Below are positions 16,819-24,462 of a stretch of 64,000 bases of DNA, piece by piece. The number at the start of each line of letters is the position of its first letter. Position 1 is the stretch's first letter. This stretch comes from Aureispira sp. CCB-E (GTDB taxonomy: Bacteria > Bacteroidota > Bacteroidia > Chitinophagales > Saprospiraceae). A program made the translations under genes and the position numbers. The notes under the pieces were generated by a model, which was not told where the DNA came from, searched no databases, and was given only the letters and a program-made list of their open reading frames with translations. The stretch lies in assembly GCF_031326345.1 (NCBI RefSeq), contig NZ_CP133671.1, positions 7,227,501-7,291,500 on the forward strand. Direction: 5' to 3'.

Positions 16819-17517
16819 ATGTCCACTATTTTAGAAACGGCCGTTCTTTCCCTACAAACTTGGAACGAAGTTCGTAACGATGGTGCCGCCACTCGAAATT
16901 ACTTTAATCAAGGAGCTTACTTTCAAATATCTAGAGATAATTTTAATCAATGGAATTTAAACGCACCTAGTAGCTTACATGCTTACATGGGACTAACTCA
17001 AGCAATTGGGCAAACCAATTTTTCGCTTGCATTATATTGTGTGGATAATATCACCGATTCAAAGCCTGTTCCCAATCATCTAGTTGAATTCAACACTAAT
17101 ATTAAACAAAGCATTTACCAACGATCGGTCCTTCCCAATGCTCATTTTATATTTGAGAAAGATCCTCCTGACCCTGTAAAGCCACAGATAGATACTTTAA
17201 CAGCGTTAAAAGATTCCAAAAAATGGATTCTACACAAAGACCATTGGTTGCTTCGACAGAAAGATTTTGTTCAAGTTTTTATTATTCCCTTTGAAAACTT
17301 AAGTCACCTCTTTGCAAATGAAAATGTTACCAACATTGTTCTTTTACCGGCATTGAATGAAGTTGGTGAGAATGATTTTGAGCTCCATCTAATACTTTGG
17401 GGACATACTTTAGAAGGTATGTTAGCCAACTATCCTGTTGATGGGGTTCGTGCCAATCCCCCTTATGATACTCCCTCAAATTTCCAGCTACTTGATTATG
17501 CCTTAAGTTCTAAGTAG
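16819..17517 (+). CDS. Protein of unknown function, first of a tandem pair
   Basis: 232 residues, no signal peptide, no membrane helix. It is homologous over its full length to the next gene (17582-18259). Shared blocks are WNEVR, YFNQGAYFQ, HAYMGL/HAYLGL, SL-x-x-x-VD-x-ITD, HKD-x-W, QVF-IPF, LILWG and SNFQL. The regular mix of strands and short helices suggests one compact globular domain of about 220 residues. I do not recognise the family and see no catalytic triad or metal motif. It lies ahead of a membrane protein, a kinase and a regulator on the same strand, with about 65 nt to its paralogue, so the set may be one transcription unit. Confidence 0.75.
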   Translation: MSTILETAVLSLQTWNEVRNDGAATRNYFNQGAYFQISRDNFNQWNLNAPSSLHAYMGLTQAIGQTNFSLALYCVDNITDSKPVPNHLVEFNTNIKQSIYQRSVLPNAHFIFEKDPPDPVKPQIDTLTALKDSKKWILHKDHWLLRQKDFVQVFIIPFENLSHLFANENVTNIVLLPALNEVGENDFELHLILWGHTLEGMLANYPVDGVRANPPYDTPSNFQLLDYALSSK

Positions 17518-17581
17518 TTTTTATCACTAGAGGAATAACTGCATTATTTAAACATCACATTTACACCCAAAACAATACATT

Positions 17582-18259
17582 ATGAGCTCAATAATATCCA
17601 AGGCAAGTCAAGCTATTCGAATTTGGAATGAAGTCAGAAAAACCCCTACTGCCGTTATTAATTATTTCAACCAAGGAGCTTATTTTCAACTTTTTAAAGA
17701 AGATTATACAACTTGGAAATCACGTAAACCCAGTTATATACACGCTTATTTGGGATTGGTGCAACCTCCTACAAAAGCCCACTTTTCTTTAAGTATGTTT
17801 TCTGTGGACAGCATTACCGACAAAACTCCTGTCGAAACAAACTGGGAAGCCTTTGAAACCAACCTGAAACACAATCCTTATCGAGCTGCGATCATTCCAG
17901 ACCCAAGTATGAATTTAATAGATAGTTCTCCTATCATCACCCCTCTTGAAGGGTTAACCCGTTCAATTCAATGGGCTTTGCACAAAGATTTATGGATTGA
18001 GAAACAAAACGACTTAGTCCAAGTGTTTGAAATTCCCTTTAGTGATCTATCCGTATTATTTGAAGAAGAATTCGCAGATTATATCATTCTTTCTCCTGCT
18101 CTAAAAGAACAAGAAACACCCAATGCATTTGCAATTGATCTAATCCTTTGGGGTTATAATTCTAATGGAGTTACCTGGAATCGATCAATGGATTTTCTCA
18201 GACCTGCTCCTCCTTTTTCCTTTCCATCCAATTTTCAACTTATAAAGTATGCTTTATGA
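17582..18259 (+). CDS. Protein of unknown function, second of a tandem pair
   Basis: 225 residues, a diverged copy of the preceding gene with the same block order (WNEVRKTP, YFNQGAYFQLF, HAYLGLVQ, SVDSITDKTPV, ALHKDLWIEKQND, QVFEIPF, DLILWGYNSNG, SNFQLIKYAL). It keeps the length and all conserved aromatic positions, so both copies are probably functional. Its last codons overlap the start of the membrane protein at 18249, which points to translational coupling with the signalling genes downstream. The role is unknown; a ligand-binding or effector role tied to the signalling genes is only a guess from context. Confidence 0.75.
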   Translation: MSSIISKASQAIRIWNEVRKTPTAVINYFNQGAYFQLFKEDYTTWKSRKPSYIHAYLGLVQPPTKAHFSLSMFSVDSITDKTPVETNWEAFETNLKHNPYRAAIIPDPSMNLIDSSPIITPLEGLTRSIQWALHKDLWIEKQNDLVQVFEIPFSDLSVLFEEEFADYIILSPALKEQETPNAFAIDLILWGYNSNGVTWNRSMDFLRPAPPFSFPSNFQLIKYAL

Positions 18260-18926
18260 TAATATGCTCCATTTTTTCAACGCTTTATTAACCGTAACAG
18301 AACTTTCGATGTTCATTGCTGGGGTTACCGTTTGTTATTATCTCAAGCAACTATCTCACTTATACAAATTAATAGGGAGTTATATTGGCTTAAGTATTTT
18401 AGTCGAACTACTAACGACCTATTTTATGAGTAGTACAGGCTATAATTTATTTTTATTGCCAGTTTATAGCTTTGCCGAATTAGCCATATTCTCAACGATA
18501 TACCTCTGTTTCTTTTTCGAAGAAGAAAAGAGCACTTTAAGAAATTTGTTATTATTGGCACATGGGCTCATTATTTTAGATATTCTGTTCTTGTGCGACC
18601 TATTTAATGCAGAAACATTTTATGCTTTTAGTAAAGTTGTTGCAGACATTGCCATTATACTACTTTGCTTAAGATATTATTGGACTATATTAAAGGAAAA
18701 AACACCTATTGATAAAGAACGATTGTTGCTCAATTCTATGTTTATTGGATATTTTTCTATCAATAGCATTATATTTTTATCAATTAATTTTTTAGTCAAT
18801 GAATCCTTGTATTTAGTCACCCCTTTTTGGATGCTGAATGCATTAAGTGCACTATTACTTTATTCATTTTTGACCTATATGATATGGCAGCATGGCAAAA
18901 CCCAGAAAACTTCGCCCTATGGTTGA
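18249..18926 (+). CDS. Multi-pass membrane protein, possible sensor partner
   Basis: 225 residues with about seven membrane helices spread through the whole chain (for example LLTVTELSMFIAGVTVCYYL near 12-31, LIGSYIGLSILVELLTTYF near 39-58, LLLLAHGLIILDILFLCDLF near 95-115, FWMLNALSALLLYSFLTYMI near 195-215). There is no enzyme motif. It overlaps the stop of 17582-18259 at its start and overlaps the kinase gene by about 43 nt at its end. This layout, a seven-helix protein coupled to a NarL-type kinase that has only one helix of its own, suggests it supplies the membrane sensing part (inference). A second in-frame ATG five codons in is an alternative start. Confidence 0.75.
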   Translation: MLYDNMLHFFNALLTVTELSMFIAGVTVCYYLKQLSHLYKLIGSYIGLSILVELLTTYFMSSTGYNLFLLPVYSFAELAIFSTIYLCFFFEEEKSTLRNLLLLAHGLIILDILFLCDLFNAETFYAFSKVVADIAIILLCLRYYWTILKEKTPIDKERLLLNSMFIGYFSINSIIFLSINFLVNESLYLVTPFWMLNALSALLLYSFLTYMIWQHGKTQKTSPYG

Positions 18927-19642
18927 GTATTGTATTCGCTTTCGTCATAGCCCTAATTGGAACATTTGTCTATTTCACTAGGCTCTATTTCGTTCGGATA
19001 TTAAGAGAACAACAGAAACTACAAAAAACCATTGTTGCCCATCAACAGCAGTTGTTGGAAGATAGCATTCTGGTGCAAGAACGAGAACGCAATCGAATTG
19101 CTGCCGACCTGCACGACGATTTGATTTCTAAACTTAATATTTCTTTATTAAGCCTACATACTACGCCCAACTTAGACGATCTTAGCACTATGTTGCAAGA
19201 TAGTATTATTTTAGCAAGACGCATTTCACACGACCTAAGTCCGCCCCTATTGGAGCAAAGCAATTTGTATGAGCTATTAGAGGGCTTTCTAGATCCCATA
19301 CAAGAACATCTTAAAATCAATTTATCCTACTCGTGTACAATAGAAAAAGACTTGTCTAATCCTACTAAATTGCAAATTTTTAGAATTGCTCAAGAGGTTA
19401 TTAATAATATTCTAAAACATGCCCAATCGACTACCTTAAACATTCATTTGCATCAAGGAAAATATTTTGTTGGGCTAAAAATTATAGATAATGGAATTGG
19501 GTTTGATATCAATCAGAACACACAAGGTCTCGGTTTAAAAAATATCACACTTAGAAGTCAAAGCTTGAAAGGAGTATTCCGATTTAACTCTAAGCCTCAG
19601 CAAGGGAGTTCTTTTTTATTTTTCAAAAAACACCATATATGA
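18884..19642 (+). CDS. NarL/DegS-type sensor histidine kinase
   Basis: 252 residues from the ATG at 18884. A longer reading from 18827 would overlap the upstream gene by 100 nt and adds no recognisable sequence. One membrane helix (about 11-31, FALWLSIVFAFVIALIGTFVY) is followed by a short coiled coil. The HisKA_3 dimerisation box ERNRIAADLHDDL has phospho-acceptor H77, and the HATPase domain has QEVINNILKHAQ (N box), DNGIGFD and GLGLKNI. It has no periplasmic sensor domain and is coupled by overlap to the multi-helix protein upstream and by ATGA to the regulator downstream. It should phosphorylate that regulator. Confidence 0.92.
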   Translation: MAAWQNPENFALWLSIVFAFVIALIGTFVYFTRLYFVRILREQQKLQKTIVAHQQQLLEDSILVQERERNRIAADLHDDLISKLNISLLSLHTTPNLDDLSTMLQDSIILARRISHDLSPPLLEQSNLYELLEGFLDPIQEHLKINLSYSCTIEKDLSNPTKLQIFRIAQEVINNILKHAQSTTLNIHLHQGKYFVGLKIIDNGIGFDINQNTQGLGLKNITLRSQSLKGVFRFNSKPQQGSSFLFFKKHHI

Positions 19643-20325
19643 ATTTAGAATCTACCACTATTCAATTAGCAATTGTCGATGATGAACAACTAATCGTAAA
19701 ACTATTAGAAGGCTTTTTTTCTCAACAACAAGCAACCACTGTAGCACTTTCTGCTTTTGGGGGCAAAGACTTTTTGCAGCAATTAGCCACACAAACGACT
19801 CCTATTGATATTGTTCTACTTGATTTAAAGATGAAAGATATGGATGGTATTGAAGTTGCTACCATACTAAAAGACAACTACCCCAATATTCATGTTATCG
19901 TCATTTCTTCTCACTACCAAAAGTCCTTTATGGGCTATATGCTAAAAACAGGTGTTAGTGCTTTTTTGCCTAAGGGAATTTTGCCACAACAACTTTTGGA
20001 AATTGTAAAGACAGTTCATCAAAAAGGCTTTTATTTCTTACCTGAGCAAATCGAAGTAATGCGTACTCAAATTGCTCCCAAAGCCCCTAGACCAAAACTG
20101 ACACTGCAAACAACGCTAACTAACAGAGAAAAAGAAATTTTGGAATTGATTTGCCACCAAAAAACAGCTCAAGAAATTGCTGACAAACTTTTTATTACCA
20201 AACGAACCGTTGAGGGGCATAAGAACAACTTGTTATCTAAAGTAGGGGTTAAAAATACAGCAGGACTGATTATTTATGCTATTAAAGAAAAAATCGTTGA
20301 TATCAATTCTCTCAATGTGTTGTAA
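19639..20325 (+). CDS. NarL/LuxR-type response regulator
   Basis: 228 residues. The receiver domain (about 8-125) has the acidic pair in IVDDEQ, the phospho-acceptor Asp in IVLLDLKMKDMDG, and the switch Ser and Lys in VIVISSHYQ and AFLPKG. A linker follows, then a LuxR helix-turn-helix (about 165-225) with LTNREKEILELICHQKTAQ and FITKRTVEGHKNNLLSKVGV. Its start overlaps the kinase stop in an ATGA, so kinase and regulator are made together. The terminator-like hairpin at 20396-20428 ends the unit just before the RiPP-like locus, which is the nearest possible target (inference). Confidence 0.95.
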   Translation: MNLESTTIQLAIVDDEQLIVKLLEGFFSQQQATTVALSAFGGKDFLQQLATQTTPIDIVLLDLKMKDMDGIEVATILKDNYPNIHVIVISSHYQKSFMGYMLKTGVSAFLPKGILPQQLLEIVKTVHQKGFYFLPEQIEVMRTQIAPKAPRPKLTLQTTLTNREKEILELICHQKTAQEIADKLFITKRTVEGHKNNLLSKVGVKNTAGLIIYAIKEKIVDINSLNVL

Positions 20326-20499: not shown

Positions 20500-22437
20500 A
20501 TGAAGAGCGATTCCACCTCGACTTCGAGTATTCCCAACTCAGGTCTAGCGACACCCAAAACTAGTTCCCTTAATGACTTACTCCCTGATCTTGATCGTTT
20601 GTGGAACCAAACCAAGGGAGATCCTTCCATTTGTATTGCAGTCTTAGACAGTGCAATAGATCAACAACATGCTTGTTTTGCCAGTTCTAATCTATCCATA
20701 ATCAATACAGCTGATTCTAGCGATCAGTTGCTCTCAGAACATGGCACAAGTGTTGCCAGTATTATTTTTAGCCAAGATGTGGAATTACAAGGTATTGCTC
20801 CTCTATGCCGAGGAATTGGCATTAGCATATATGCCGAAAAAGACCAACAGTTGCAGCCTACCTCCCAGATGAAGCTAGCGCAATGTATAGAGCTTGCCAT
20901 AGCAGAAGGAGCAGAAATTATCAATATCAGTGGAGGGCAGTTCTCTAATTCCAGCGTAGCGGATTTATTGCTATCCAAAGTCCTAAAAAAATGCCAAGAC
21001 AAAGGCATATTAGTTGTTGCAGCAGCAGGCAATGATGGTTGTGAGTGTTTGCATCTGCCAGCGGCAGAACCTTCTGTCTTAGCAGTAGGCGCAATGGATC
21101 ACAACCAACAGCCCTCTGATTTTAGCAATTGGGGCAAAGCCTATCAAAGAAATGGATTGCTTTTTCCAGGTAACAATATCCCTGTTGCGATTTTTGAGAA
21201 TAAATTTAGTCACAAATCAGGTACCAGTTATGCCACTCCTATTGCATCGGGTATCGTTGCGCTGCTTCTCAGTCTTTCACGACAACAAAATCTATCTCAC
21301 ACAGCACAAGACATTTTTCATCTACTACTACAATCGGCTACTAAATGCGATGCTAACCAACAAGACAACTGCGAAAAAACGCTTGTTGGTACCATCAATA
21401 TTGCAGCAGCCCTCCAAGTAATTCTAGGAGATCAACTATCGCCTAGTCAGATTAATAATCTAAAATCATCAACTTCCAACCATTTTATTAATTCAAATCA
21501 AACAAAAGAAATCATGTTAGAAAACAATCAAGGCATCGAAGTAGCAGAAGTCAATTTATCTGCTAATATCCCAACTTCTCTAGACCAACAACCAACAGCT
21601 CCAGAAACAGTTTCTACCAATCAAGGTATCACACCATCTTGTGGCGAAAACAAATCGTGTGGATGTAACAGTGGAAAAAGCAAAGCCATTGAAAATGTTT
21701 ATACCATAGGAACCTTGAGTTACACCTTCCAGAGCACCTCTAGACAAAATGCATTTGACCAAGCAATGGGAGACAGAAAAAGCATCAACAACGCCAAAGA
21801 TGTTATTTCTTTTTTGAAAAAAAATCCAGAAAAATCAGAAGATCTGCTTTGGATTGTCAAATTGGACGAAACACCAATCTATGCGGTTCATCCTGTTGGA
21901 GGATATGTTCGAGAAACGTACGAACAGCTTCGTGAAGCACTAGACGATTTACACGATGGCAAAATCCACCGCATATCTATTCCTGGAATCATAGCGGGGT
22001 CAGTTACCTTGATGAATGGATTATCAGTTCCTGTTTTAGTTCCTGTAGGTCATCAAATGTATGGTTGGAAAACTACAGACATTGCATCCGAAGAACTAAG
22101 TGCTGGAGCTTTAGGAAACTTCCTAGATCGTATCTATTATGAATTGAGAAACACAGGCAGAACCCCAGAAGAACGTGCCATCAACTTCGCAGCAACCAAT
22201 GCTTGGCAAGCAGAACAAGTCTTTTCGTCTACAGCCAAAGAAGGGATGGAATTGCTTTCTATTGATGTAGCTCGTAGTCCTATTTGCGAGCCAAACTCAG
22301 ATTGTTGGGATGTCAAATTAACCTTCTTTACGCCTTCTGATACAGATAAAGCAAAATTGGTCTTCCGATTTACAATTGATGTCAGTTATGCGATCCCTGT
22401 ATCTATTGGTGAAGTTCGCTCTTGGTCTACCTACTAA
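20500..22437 (+). CDS. PatA/PatG-type subtilisin protease (cyanobactin maturation family)
   Basis: 645 residues with no signal peptide, so cytoplasmic. Residues 36-305 form a peptidase S8 domain with an intact triad: D50 (CIAVLDSAID), H81 (SEHGTSVAS), S243 (SGTSYATP), and oxyanion N178 (AAAGNDGC). The surrounding wording (GDPSICIAVLD, IINISGG, CLHLPAAEPSVLAVGAMD, FSNWG) is that of the cyanobactin PatA/PatG proteases, not of secreted subtilisins. A Cys-rich linker (CGENKSCGC, 381-389) leads to a C-terminal domain (about 399-645; VYTIGTLSYTFQS, LDETPIYAVHPVGGY, GSVTLMNGLSVPVLVP) like the C-terminal region of PatG/PatA. In known systems these enzymes cut leader or follower from precursor peptides, and PatG also macrocyclises. 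Two candidate precursors lie immediately downstream. The N-terminal oxidase of PatG is absent. Confidence 0.92.
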   Translation: MKSDSTSTSSIPNSGLATPKTSSLNDLLPDLDRLWNQTKGDPSICIAVLDSAIDQQHACFASSNLSIINTADSSDQLLSEHGTSVASIIFSQDVELQGIAPLCRGIGISIYAEKDQQLQPTSQMKLAQCIELAIAEGAEIINISGGQFSNSSVADLLLSKVLKKCQDKGILVVAAAGNDGCECLHLPAAEPSVLAVGAMDHNQQPSDFSNWGKAYQRNGLLFPGNNIPVAIFENKFSHKSGTSYATPIASGIVALLLSLSRQQNLSHTAQDIFHLLLQSATKCDANQQDNCEKTLVGTINIAAALQVILGDQLSPSQINNLKSSTSNHFINSNQTKEIMLENNQGIEVAEVNLSANIPTSLDQQPTAPETVSTNQGITPSCGENKSCGCNSGKSKAIENVYTIGTLSYTFQSTSRQNAFDQAMGDRKSINNAKDVISFLKKNPEKSEDLLWIVKLDETPIYAVHPVGGYVRETYEQLREALDDLHDGKIHRISIPGIIAGSVTLMNGLSVPVLVPVGHQMYGWKTTDIASEELSAGALGNFLDRIYYELRNTGRTPEERAINFAATNAWQAEQVFSSTAKEGMELLSIDVARSPICEPNSDCWDVKLTFFTPSDTDKAKLVFRFTIDVSYAIPVSIGEVRSWSTY

Positions 22438-22512
22438 GCCTCCAATCAATAGAGCTATCAATAAATATTAAAACTTTATTAATTTATTATTCACTTTTAA
22501 ATTCTTTTAATC

Positions 22513-22686
22513 ATGAGAATTCCAATGCAATCCATGCCTATTGGCAATCAGCTTAATTACAATGCTAAAGCAACTGGTGTTAACGAATCTGGTCTTCCTT
22601 GCACACTTTGTAAGTTAGCTTGTAACCAGTTATCTGGTGTCGCAAAAACACTTTGTCTACTAGCCTGTGATAAAACTGTCTGCTAG
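22513..22686 (+). CDS. Candidate RiPP precursor peptide 1
   Basis: A 57-residue peptide starting 75 nt after the protease stop. Residues 4-11 (PMQSMPIG) and 15-17 (NYN) are identical to peptide 2. A low-complexity polar stretch leads to S26-G27, then a hydrophobic residue, and the Cys-rich part begins at C30. Six cysteines at 30, 33, 37, 48, 52 and 57 give the pattern CxxCxxxC-x10-CxxxCxxxxC, and Cys is the last residue. About 34 of 57 residues match peptide 2. The leader/core split after S26-G27 is inferred from conservation. No GG-type or cyanobactin-type (LAELSEEA) leader is present. It ends in a hairpin terminator whose arms are shared with peptide 2. Confidence 0.85.
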   Translation: MRIPMQSMPIGNQLNYNAKATGVNESGLPCTLCKLACNQLSGVAKTLCLLACDKTVC

Positions 22687-22698
22687 AATTATTTTCTG

Positions 22699-22734
22699 AG
22701 CACAAAAGCTTTCAATCTAGTTTTTGTGCTTTTA
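22699..22734 (+). terminator. Terminator or attenuator after peptide 1
   Basis: Arms AGCACAAAA (22699-22707) and TTTTGTGCT (22722-22730), then TTTATT. The arms are the same as in the hairpin after peptide 2, showing that the terminator was duplicated with the gene. Confidence 0.75.
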
Positions 22735-22834
22735 TTCTAATTAATAGTCCACTAAAAATCCTTCATAGACTGCTAACGCTATAACAATACAGGTCTAATG
22801 ACAAAAAATAGTGGTCTACAAAAACCAACGTATT

Positions 22835-23008
22835 ATGAAAACTCCAATGCAATCTATGCCTATTGGCATTAAAACCAATTACAACACTTCTTCAAAAGGA
22901 ATCACTACTTCAGGAATTGCCTGTACTCTTTGCAAAACAGCTTGTCAAGTTTTACCTATTGGTGCCAGACAACTTTGTGAATTAGCTTGTGACAAAACTG
23001 TCTGCTAG
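22835..23008 (+). CDS. Candidate RiPP precursor peptide 2
   Basis: A 57-residue paralogue of peptide 1. The ATG at 22835 aligns exactly with the start of peptide 1; an upstream in-frame start at 22811 would add eight residues without similarity. It keeps PMQSMPIG (4-11), NYN (15-17), S26-G27 and all six cysteines (30, 33, 37, 48, 52, 57), plus CTLCK (30-34) and the C-terminal ACDKTVC (51-57). The differences fall mostly at 18-25 and 38-46. The even spacing of Cys with Leu/Ala between them suggests two amphipathic helices tied by disulfides, or thioether/other modification. Bacteriocin-like activity is a guess. Confidence 0.85.
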   Translation: MKTPMQSMPIGIKTNYNTSSKGITTSGIACTLCKTACQVLPIGARQLCELACDKTVC

Positions 23009-23024
23009 TCTAACATGCCCTTAG

Positions 23025-23060
23025 AGCACAAAAACAACTAGTTGTTTTTGTGCTTATTTT
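23025..23060 (+). terminator. Terminator after peptide 2
   Basis: A perfect 13-bp stem, AGCACAAAAACAA (23025-23037) with TTGTTTTTGTGCT (23042-23054) around CTAG, followed by TATTTTC. Confidence 0.8.
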
Positions 23061-23087
23061 CAATGAACCTCTAATAAAGCTTCTATT

Positions 23088-24398
23088 ATGACTCCTACTT
23101 ATTCTAGAGAACAACAAATTTATAGCCTTTCTTTTTCGACCAATTCTGCCTTTGGGCTATCTTGGCCGCAAAGTGATTGTAAAAGTGGTATGGCTGCTAT
23201 GCAGTCCTATGTAACCAAAGTATCCAAAGATGTTCTTGCCCAAACAACGACACTCATTGGAACATGGAATTCCGTTTGGGGACCTGTTGTTTATGCTCAA
23301 AATCCTACCTCCAACTCTGTTCATGCAGACAATACAATGGGTGCCTACTACAATCCATCAGAGCAACTGTTGGTAATTTCTATTGCTGGTACCAATTCTA
23401 TCTCGACCTATGGTTGGTTGGTTCAAGACTTCTCAGTCAATAGTTTGGTAGAATGGGAATCCATCACTGGTGTTTCCTACTCTGGGCACATTGCCAAAGG
23501 CACCAGTATTGGTTTACAAATTTTATTGAGTATGAAAGATGATACGGGCAATACGCTCCTAGAAAGTTTGCGCTCGTATATTGCAAGTAATACGATTCCA
23601 ACGGGTATAGAAATAGCTGTTACGGGGCATAGCCTAGGAGGTGCCCTAGCCCCAACATTAGCTCTTTACCTATCAGACAAAAAAGCAACTTGGGACCCTT
23701 CCAATAAGGCACAGCTCTCCACTTATCCAACTGCTGGTCCGACTCCTGGCGACAAGGACTTTGCCACCTATTATCAAAAACAAATCAAAGCCAATAAAAT
23801 CGCTTATCATAGCAAATACAACACGATTGATGTTGTTCCACACGCATGGCAAAGAAGTGACCTAGCTCAAATTCCAACTTTTTATGAGCAACATATAAAA
23901 CCTTCTAGTGCGGATACACCCAATCAATCTATTTTAGGCAGCCTTGTGACACTTGCTTCTTTTATCGCTATGGCAGACAAAATTGTGGTTGTTCCCCACA
24001 AAAATCCCTATCAGCAAATTCAACCTTCGACTCCTTTGCAAGGAACATTTGACAATTCAGTCGATTTAAAAGCTATTGCAGCCATTGCCTTTGTCAGTGC
24101 TTTGAACTTACCAAAAAATCTAAAAGATGCCTACTTACCAGTGATTAGTCAATTCACTCGTTTTGTAGCTCAGGCTGCCACACAACACACAACAGCCTAT
24201 TACCCCTTATTAGACATTGTCAATTTTATGACAGCTTATAAAAATATTATTAATAACAACAAACCAAAAGACAGTACAGTTTTAACTCCTGACGAACTTG
24301 CCATCAAAGATACCCTCAAAGTAGATCTGAATGAGATAGAAGTAGCTGACTTAGTGCTCGCTTATCAGCAAAACAAAGCTCCAAACGATTCTGAATAA
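23088..24398 (+). CDS. Class 3 lipase-like alpha/beta hydrolase
   Basis: 436 residues without a signal peptide. The core matches the lipase class 3 fold: LVISIAGTNSISTYGWLVQD carries the oxyanion region, the nucleophile elbow TGHSLGGALAP holds S182, and a likely catalytic Asp is in NTIDVVPHAW near 245. The terminal His is not obvious. The remainder (about 260-436) is mostly helical and unassigned. It starts 79 nt after peptide 2 and is closed by a strong terminator, so it belongs to the same locus as the protease and peptides. It could act on an acyl or ester group of the product or on a target membrane, or it could be an unrelated passenger; the sequence does not decide. Confidence 0.8.
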   Translation: MTPTYSREQQIYSLSFSTNSAFGLSWPQSDCKSGMAAMQSYVTKVSKDVLAQTTTLIGTWNSVWGPVVYAQNPTSNSVHADNTMGAYYNPSEQLLVISIAGTNSISTYGWLVQDFSVNSLVEWESITGVSYSGHIAKGTSIGLQILLSMKDDTGNTLLESLRSYIASNTIPTGIEIAVTGHSLGGALAPTLALYLSDKKATWDPSNKAQLSTYPTAGPTPGDKDFATYYQKQIKANKIAYHSKYNTIDVVPHAWQRSDLAQIPTFYEQHIKPSSADTPNQSILGSLVTLASFIAMADKIVVVPHKNPYQQIQPSTPLQGTFDNSVDLKAIAAIAFVSALNLPKNLKDAYLPVISQFTRFVAQAATQHTTAYYPLLDIVNFMTAYKNIINNNKPKDSTVLTPDELAIKDTLKVDLNEIEVADLVLAYQQNKAPNDSE

Positions 24399-24423
24399 TT
24401 TTGGGCTGGCTTATTTTCCCCTT

Positions 24424-24462
24424 AGGTAACAACAAGTAAATAGACGGTTGTTACCTTTTTTT
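24424..24462 (+). terminator. Terminator closing the RiPP-like locus
   Basis: Arms AGGTAACAAC (24424-24433) and GTTGTTACCT (24447-24456), a 10-bp perfect stem with a 13-nt loop, then a run of T. Confidence 0.9.

Follow-up and report, generated by a model that had tools for sequence, protein, structure and literature searches.

Organisation of the locus

We analysed a window of 64,000 nucleotides from the genome of Aureispira sp. CCB-E. Within it, a gene for a PatA/PatG-type maturation protease is followed on the same strand by two small genes and a gene for a lipase-like hydrolase (Table 1). As originally predicted, the small genes encode paralogous peptides of 57 residues, identical at 34 of 57 positions (60%). 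YcaO (PF02624) had no match in the genome, and Pfam recognised no modifying enzyme or transporter among the ten flanking genes, five of which had no Pfam match. This agrees with the predicted lack of a YcaO protein, an oxidase and a transporter nearby. No immunity gene was identified, nor an exporter among the same ten genes.

Table 1. Features of the locus, in positions of the window.
Feature	Position	Strand	Evidence or remark
Histidine kinase and LuxR-type response regulator	18827..20325	+	directly upstream of protease
PatA-type maturation protease, 645 aa	20500..22437	+	TIGR03895, Pfam domains, nearest PDB entries, triad
RSII-like GITPS (aa 376-380) in protease linker, candidate self-cleavage site	21625..21639	+	linker pattern in relatives
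Precursor peptide 1, 57 aa	22513..22686	+	homologues adjoin PatA/G proteases in G703, G620, G1007, G990, G1021
Leader of peptide 1 (aa 1-26), IPMQSMPI and RSII-like GVNES (22576-22590)	22513..22590	+	motif comparison; AlphaFold2
Predicted mature core of peptide 1, GLPCTLCKLACNQLSGVAKTLCLLACDKTVC, 31 aa, 6 Cys	22591..22683	+	core HMM; predicted helices
Hairpin with T-rich tail 3' of peptide 1	22698..22731	+	folding z -5.96
Precursor peptide 2, 57 aa, RSII-like GITTS (22898-22912), core from 22913	22835..23008	+	plan as peptide 1
Hairpin with T-rich tail 3' of peptide 2, start GAGCACAAAA as in first hairpin	23024..23055	+	folding z -3.92
Class 3 lipase-like hydrolase, 436 aa, co-directional neighbour	23088..24398	+	Lipase_3 53 bits
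Possible closing terminator, 10-bp stem, 13-nt loop, T-run	24424..24456	+	folding z -0.95

The maturation protease

The protease scores 582.6 bits against TIGR03895 (PatA/PatG maturation protease; curated cut-off 421.05). Pfam places an S8 domain at residues 44-285, PatG_D at 400-499 and PatG_C at 535-642 (PF18065, 125 bits; PF18047, 50.6 bits); a linker spans about 318-399. Asp50, His81 and Ser243 sit at the catalytic triad motifs. The enzyme thus has the intact triad and the PatG-like C-terminus that had been proposed for it. Its nearest PDB entry is 4h6w (263.6 bits), which is titled N-terminal cyanobactin protease and which we take to be PagA. The PatA structure (4h6v) scored 229.8 bits and the PatG macrocyclase domain 135.2 bits. 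Residues 38-315 pair with residues 14-293 of PatA (278 versus 280 residues), which leaves no room for the macrocyclase insert of PatG, and none was found in the subtilisin fold as judged by this alignment. By these sequence comparisons the protease is of the PatA type, nearer to PagA and PatA than to the PatG macrocyclase. It is the only protein in the genome above the TIGR03895 cut-off, in line with the expectation of a single protease instead of a PatA and PatG pair.

The precursor peptides

Both peptides carry a cyanobactin-like leader motif (IPMQSMPI in peptide 1, TPMQSMPI in peptide 2). Nineteen residues past it, at residues 22-26, lies an RSII-like site (GVNES/G and GITTS/G, the slash marking the predicted cut). 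GVNES and GITTS differ at several positions from the RSII consensus G(L/V)E(A/P)S given in an excerpt of the literature (PMC10885120). RSI and RSIII were not seen in either peptide on inspection by eye. The original prediction that RSI-, RSII- and RSIII-like motifs are all missing therefore holds for the first and third but has to be given up for RSII, and it had overlooked the leader motif. Both peptides end in LACDKTVC and share the core pattern CxxCxxxC-x10-CxxxC-x4-C. Met1, Pro4, the six Cys and Ser26, the residue before the cut, are invariant in the seven-row peptide family, and the core is conserved from just past the site. A product starting at Gly27 (a 31-mer) is more likely than the 30-mer first predicted.

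Comparison of the two genes over 57 codons gave dN 0.315 and dS 0.957 (dN/dS about 0.33, from one paralogue pair); for the G1007/G990 pair the values are 0.100 and 0.149 (about 0.67). An AlphaFold2 model of peptide 1, built on two sequences (mean pLDDT 65), leaves residues 1-27 without helix or strand and mostly at low confidence, and predicts helices at residues 28-37 and 43-55, with pLDDT of 76-83 in the core blocks. The predicted product is a 31-residue helical hairpin with six Cys, not notably amphipathic in peptide 1. No signal peptide is apparent by eye in the precursor.

Existing family models hardly recognise such peptides. TIGR04446 (PirE-type precursor; cut-off 35 bits) did not recognise the peptides of the window. 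In searches of 11 genomes none of its matches fell on a peptide, and it had none among the 32 peptides scanned with NCBIfam. One weak hit, to the Gloeocapsa peptide (E 0.012, 14.2 bits), was seen, and the model was dropped as a precursor detector. Pfam and NCBIfam together named a single one of the 32, a Kunitz domain.

Recurrence of the protease–peptide pair

A profile of the two peptides was searched against 298 related genomes of the same order. The best foreign match was in G620 (E 4.2e-9, against 6.2e-4 in the genome ranked next); the three peptide matches there are 1.4-2.3 kb away from a TIGR03895 protease (614 bits) and on its strand. At E<=1, matches occurred in 136 of the 298, nearly all weak. 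In both Saprospiraceae and the Duganella family, a core of the Aureispira type adjoins the protease; a core HMM made from four Bacteroidota cores matches Duganella-family ORFs at E 2.3e-12 to 1.1e-11. In the own family (298 genomes, seven with PatG_C) the peptide profile (A2) matched five genomes, and in the Duganella family (195 genomes, eight with PatG_C) it matched three; every matched genome has PatG_C. The profile contains sequences from five of the eight genomes it matches, G753 is the same species and the G864 match is partial. At E<=0.001 it had no match in 478 sampled genomes without PatG_C (291 and 187 from the two families).

Peptides with the leader motif were found at 16 of the 23 PatA/G loci examined, in four phyla, and 15 of these loci have an RSII-like site. 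The other seven are L010, L054, L058 and L076-L079; L077 had no leader peptide in a scan of the entire locus, its centre for the following count being set roughly (9000). A regular expression for the leader matched 28 times in 223 kb near the 23 loci and had no match in 190 kb at greater distance, the expectation from shuffles being 0.75. It was initially learnt on some of the counted loci and did not pick up peptide 2 of the window; two of the 28 matches are to be discounted (L078, chance-like; L054, PatB). Around 15 S8 loci scoring under the TIGR03895 cut-off it had no match in 54 kb.

The spacing of leader and site is nearly constant. An RSII-like site lies 17-27 residues past the leader anchor in 31 of 36 peptides (mean 2.9 and maximum 11 in 2000 shuffles), and a stricter form in 21 (mean 0.53, maximum 4). 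Not included in the 36 are an identical copy in Streptomyces, the three peptides of family 1 at L073-L075, the G753 copies (same species), PatB of L054 and larger proteins. By the rule used, the two G703 peptides have no site, and it is uncertain whether G590 (PQ for PS) and G208_a (SVMPQ) have one. Among the 31 site-bearing peptides, Cys makes up 1 of 988 leader residues versus 143 of 1278 core residues. The cores range over six-Cys hairpins, ten-Cys peptides, Cys-free peptides, amphipathic peptides and a Kunitz domain.

Two further sets of matches were rejected. Those in f73/g228 genomes (G446, G424, G435, G412) are weak, no protein there exceeds the TIGR03895 cut-off, and we took them as chance. 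For Streptomyces we make no claim to a core of the Aureispira type, because the core-HMM E values there (L057, 0.0028; L056, 0.024) are no better than those of L016 and L017 (0.0053 and 0.0066).

The search for the same pairing elsewhere, which the original prediction had called for, thus gave a positive answer, and its supposition that the protease processes the two peptides is very probably right. We recognised no literature on this pairing in the openly licensed part of PubMed Central.

Proposed maturation and alternatives

We propose, with a probability of about 0.72, that the locus is a minimal branch of cyanobactin processing logic, one that works without modification. The N-terminal motif M-x-I/T-P-M-Q-S-M-P-I would direct the 57-residue precursors to the single PatA-type subtilisin, which would cut behind the Ser of the RSII-like site. 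The C-terminal 31 residues would be set free, probably without azoline rings or macrocyclisation, since YcaO, a macrocyclase and RSIII were not found. Outside the cytoplasm the six Cys probably pair as three nested disulfides over the helix-loop-helix, as in α-hairpinins, where Cys1 pairs with Cys4 and Cys2 with Cys3; the expected pairs are C30-C57, C33-C52 and C37-C48. The peptides probably act on other cells in a bacteriocin-like manner. The locus had been put forward as a candidate new peptide class; through their leader and RSII-like site, however, the peptides are linked to the logic of cyanobactin precursors, and a stripped-down, non-azoline, non-macrocyclic branch is therefore the better description.

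The peptides could instead bind metal through CxxC...CxxxC or act inside the cell, with processing secondary. Six conserved Cys, no evident signal peptide and no recognised exporter in the flanking genes would suit this role. However, none of the 32 peptides matched a metal-binding family at E<=0.01 (a SUZ12 zinc-domain match on peptide 1, E 0.31, fails the cut-off) and cores at other loci are Cys-free, which makes it unlikely. Slightly less likely still is a role as propeptide-like inhibitors or regulators of the protease: the genes are adjacent, one relative has a Kunitz inhibitor core and a tight-binding pseudo-substrate would also keep the site conserved, but cores of varied kind behind a leader and site that keep their form are what one expects of a protease guided by a leader and handling variable cargo. 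The lack of a YcaO match, of a second protease above the TIGR03895 cut-off, of room for a macrocyclase insert and of an RSIII-like tail, with a core ending in Cys, makes it improbable that enzymes encoded elsewhere in the genome heterocyclise or macrocyclise the core as in an ordinary cyanobactin pathway, despite the common protease family, leader motif and RSII-like site and, in an excerpt of PMC6162287, published cyanobactins without heterocyclase. Small ORFs are common and weak profile matches widespread, yet chance adjacency can hardly account for homologues that accompany such a protease in another phylum (E about 1e-12), for the lack of matches in the sampled genomes without PatG_C and for the paralogue dN/dS.

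Relation to known systems

We take NILPQQGQPVIR to be the PatE leader. The Aureispira leader motif resembles this peptide, crystallised together with a cyanobactin oxidase according to part of the report (PMC5108345), and the cut site resembles RSII as excerpted from PMC10885120, both as degenerate forms. Protease family, domain order and several precursor genes per locus are further likenesses to cyanobactin pathways. In contrast, Aureispira has one protease above the cut-off, without macrocyclase insert, RSI, RSIII or YcaO, a 31-residue core instead of a short excised cassette, and is not a cyanobacterium. A passage of a 2015 review describes cyanobactin clusters as known from cyanobacteria only and as always encoding two proteases (PMC4663559). 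Sphaerocyclamide-type clusters, as an excerpt of PMC6162287 describes, also have no detected heterocyclase or oxidase. Their A and G proteases are both retained and their products are macrocycles, whereas Aureispira has one protease and a C-terminal Cys.

α-Hairpinins, plant antimicrobial and trypsin-inhibiting peptides, have C-X3-C-Xn-C-X3-C in a helix-loop-helix (excerpt of PMC7191063), comparable to C33-X3-C37-X10-C48-X3-C52 in the helix-loop-helix predicted by the two-sequence model. The Aureispira peptides differ in having six Cys instead of four, a bacterial host and another precursor and maturation. The likeness is one of form, and we claim no common descent. To our knowledge, the lanthipeptide leader proteases NisP and AmyP lack PatG_D and PatG_C; their recognition motifs also differ, and lanthipeptide enzymes were not recognised near the Aureispira locus. 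Leader removal by an S8-family subtilisin is shared with them, as an excerpt of PMC10885120 describes.

In Bacteroidota, Streptomyces and the Duganella family, no modification step was recognised alongside the leader, the cut site and the A-type protease, and the cores vary from Cys-free peptides to a Kunitz domain. These pairs in other bacterial groups point to a peptide maturation simpler than the known system. PatG_C together with an LPxQxxPVxR-like leader offers a search handle for such peptide genes, and the Aureispira enzyme is a candidate for a minimal protease that would free disulfide-rich peptides by cutting behind a defined Ser.

An RSII-like site in the protease linker

An unexpected observation was an RSII-like site in the linker of the protease itself, where GITPS runs on into CGENKSCGC. 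Of 19 aligned proteins, 18 have the pattern in their linker (mean 3.4, maximum 11 in 2000 shuffles), ahead of the domain of unknown function in each; the 19th has no linker. The Nostoc protease (L055) lacks the end of the S8 domain and the linker. Because the site is present in 18 of 18 linker-bearing proteins, the protease may cut itself. Cleavage at GITPS/C would separate the C-terminal domain from the protease. An excerpt of PMC4259220 calls the conservation of this PatA/PatG domain interesting and leaves it unexplained, and self-cleavage is a testable idea for it. More broadly, and tentatively, at somewhat less than even odds, PatA-type proteases with a cyanobactin-like leader could, in at least four phyla, form a general modification-free system for the maturation of antimicrobial-like peptides, both disulfide-rich and amphipathic. 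The heterocyclising and macrocyclising cyanobactins may then be an elaborated branch, and self-cleavage at the linker site would release the C-terminal domain or allow it to act.

Neighbouring genes

The upstream histidine kinase and LuxR-type pair is a possible regulator of the locus. The strong closing terminator proposed for the end of the locus folds no better than shuffled sequence (41 of 200 shuffles equally good), and the hairpins after the peptide genes, absent from the original prediction, are stronger. The lipase-like reading frame is real; its membership of the system is unsupported, as tblastn at E<=0.1 found no match in 21 other PatA/G loci and the lipase is present in 2 of 59 relatives besides its own genome, and we set it aside as a partner. 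At L052, the gene for another Lipase_3/DUF6792 protein lies on the strand opposite to the protease, at a distance of about 3.5 kb.

Recurrence of the protease-peptide pairing

The pairing of the protease with small leader-bearing peptides is real. Domain profile searches placed PatG_D and PatG_C in the 645-aa subtilisin of the window, the single protease of its genome above the cut-off of TIGR03895, the PatA/PatG maturation protease model. Its nearest solved structures are N-terminal cyanobactin proteases (4h6w, 263.6 bits; 4h6v, 229.8 bits), and the PatG macrocyclase domain scored 135.2 bits against it. The two downstream 57-aa ORFs share 60% identity. The locus aligned with that of Aureispira sp. 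CCB-QB1 over 4201 bases with 16 mismatches, one of which alters a leader residue in peptide 2. A profile built from the two window peptides only was searched in 298 genomes of the order. Its best foreign match was in genome G620 (E 4.2e-9), where a protease of 614 bits, sought only after the peptide match had been found, lies 1.4 to 2.3 kb from three peptide matches on the same contig and strand. The original prediction of a protease with two Cys-rich peptides stands overall; its claims of a missing RS motif and of a strong closing terminator do not.

PatG_C was present in 2 of 395 genomes of the phylum, in 7 of 298 of Saprospiraceae, the family of Aureispira, and in 8 of 195 of the Duganella family (Oxalobacteraceae in NCBI, Burkholderiaceae in GTDB). 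Among 23 PatA/G loci examined, plasmid records included, 16 contain short reading frames that bear the leader motif (the window, L038, L039, L048-L053, L055-L057 and L072-L075). In 15 of these 16, one or more peptides carry an RSII-like site; neither L050 peptide has one under the rule used. Their proteases combine S8, PatG_D and PatG_C, except in L055 (Nostoc), where the S8 end is missing. No leader-motif peptide was found in the other seven loci. The L010 protease is truncated and consists of S8 only; the L058 protease lies at the record end, with one flank covered by the peptide search; in L076-L079, PatG_C sits within frames of 291-505 aa; L054 is a cyanobactin cluster with the leader motif in PatB, not in a small peptide.

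Features of the window and of other PatA/G loci
Feature	Position	Remark
PatA-type protease	window 20500-22437	
Hairpin	3' of each of the two peptide ORFs	then class 3 lipase
Histidine kinase and LuxR-type response regulator	window 18827-20325	immediately upstream, same strand
Adjoining proteins of 232 and 225 aa	window 16819-18256	similar by eye; no Pfam match
Leader with GILPS immediately N-terminal of Kunitz/BPTI domain	L049 13438-13719	PF00014 56.8 bits
Arrays of ~60-73-aa peptides, leader MPxQxxPVDR	Streptomyces plasmids, L056 9740-10726; L057 9469-10611	sites such as SGVEAN, SGIEPS ahead of short cores
Duganella protease, truncated after S8 domain	L010 7947-9242	no leader peptide alongside
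Nostoc protease without S8 end and linker	L055 6944-8320	leader peptide present
Protein with two methyltransferase domains, PatG_D and PatG_C, annotated PatA/PatG protease	L054 9062-11461	no S8 found
PatB/AcyB-family protein of cyanobactin cluster	L054 11559-11774	begins with same leader-like motif, MRLPKLAPPVKR
PatG_D/PatG_C protein without protease domain	L051 11231-12370	several RSII-like sites in N-terminus (GAVEAS, LAIEPS)
139-aa protein, starts MALGINPSS	L048 14265-14684	as if cut site at N-terminus; no Pfam match
Proteins of 183 and 180 aa	L038 9061-9612; L050 7414-7956	similar by eye, internal LP-x-x-x-PP(I/V) motif; Cys-rich tail at end of L038 protein

A fixed leader regular expression, learnt partly on the loci in which it was counted, gave 28 matches in 223 kb near the loci against 0.75 expected from dinucleotide shuffles; two of the 28 are to be discounted (L078, chance-like; L054, PatB). 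It gave none in 190 kb farther from the loci, nor in the 54 kb surrounding a further 15 S8 loci. Three of the eight loci read only after it was written (L072-L079) matched, in addition to the L078 match. The expression overlooked window peptide 2 and members in L049, L052 and L075.

Predicted cutting site and cores

Published work places cleavage by PatA-like enzymes after G(L/V)E(A/P)S (PMC10885120). A relaxed RSII-like site occurs 17-27 residues past the leader anchor in 31 of 36 peptides (2000 shuffles: mean 2.9, maximum 11) and a stricter one in 21 of 36 (mean 0.53, maximum 4), both patterns having been composed after the peptides had been seen. The 31 sites lie at offsets of 19 (12 sites), 23 (8 sites) or, for the remainder, 20 to 26. 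Sites in some peptides are near the published consensus (NVEAS, GIEPS, AVEPS, GVEAN); the two Aureispira peptides have GVNES and GITTS, both at offset 19. In the 31 peptides having a site, Cys accounts for 1 of 988 leader residues and 143 of 1278 core residues.

An HMM trained on the cores (31-33 residues) from Aureispira, G703 and G620 was searched against 5989 ORFs and matched those adjoining the protease in genomes G1007, G990 and G1021 (E 2.3e-12 to 1.1e-11), which read ...QGVAPS followed by GIACTLCQMGCSALSGTAQQLCLAACAATVC, plus near copies. The core, as predicted from sequence, is common to different phyla. All sequences of the seven-row family share M1, P4, S26 and six Cys. A genome-wide profile, built with members from Aureispira, G703, G620, G1007 and G990, matched 5 of 298 and 3 of 195 genomes, every one PatG_C-positive, and none of the 291 and 187 PatG_C-negative genomes; profile and PatG_C counts refer to the same samples, as far as the rows listed show. 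Since the profile includes genomes it recovers, these zeros are the informative part.

Other cores differ in kind. G864, G703 and G985 share a second type of Cys-rich core that ends in ACCALRGAISWQGGGxAVAC, and one core in G590 is a Kunitz domain. Four of six Cys-free cores tested were more amphipathic than their shuffles (fractions 0.003-0.012), and a single plasmid supplied three of these; the remaining two were not (0.063, 0.0875). Net charge of the tested cores ranged from -2 to +2. The Aureispira core gave 0.186 in the same test.

Predicted product and history

Azolines and macrocyclisation are unlikely, given one protease and no RSIII-like tail. YcaO, the azoline cyclodehydratase, had no match in the Aureispira genome. 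Nine of 12 genomes searched had none; in G1007, G990 and G1021 it is on another contig than the protease or ~330 kb away from it. The Aureispira locus resembles the leader-removal step of the cyanobactin pathway, but tests for macrocyclisation and for azoline formation came out negative. We read the locus as a variation on a known theme, a probable cyanobactin-type leader removal without these two steps. An AlphaFold2 model based on the two window peptides has a low-confidence N-terminal part, helices at 28-37 and 43-55, and core blocks with pLDDT 76-83. The spacing C33-X3-C37-X10-C48-X3-C52 agrees with the alpha-hairpinin Cys motif as given in PMC7191063; C30 and C57 would likely form a third pair. 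A reasoned guess is that the peptides are directed at other cells.

In a protein tree, the Bacteroidota label must change four times, and well-supported branches compel three of these changes. The G590 protein is placed with Acaryochloris (99/98), and that of G208 with two proteins from the Duganella family (99/98). Transfer between phyla probably took place; exact positions are unsure because the Aureispira branch is long and defective proteins are in the tree. No paper on the protease-peptide pairing was recognised among openly licensed papers.

Linker site and neighbouring regulators

In 18 of 19 aligned proteins, the linker between the S8 domain and PatG_D also carries an RSII-like site, in many cases with Cys pairs behind it (shuffled linkers: mean 3.4, maximum 11). 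The pattern used was composed after the alignment had been seen and is less strict than the RSII of the literature; 23 of 175 other 55-aa windows from the same proteins match it too. The count includes the second L054 protein, whose linker joins methyltransferases to PatG_D; the 19th protein (Nostoc) has no linker. The Aureispira linker reads GITPS followed by CGENKSCGC. From these sequences we infer that the protease may cut its own linker. Alternatively, the linker site could act as a pseudo-substrate and keep the protease inhibited.

Regulators also lie upstream elsewhere: by annotation, response regulators in L053 and BTAD regulators in L056 and L057. Reading by eye placed AraC-like proteins close to L048, L050 and L051.
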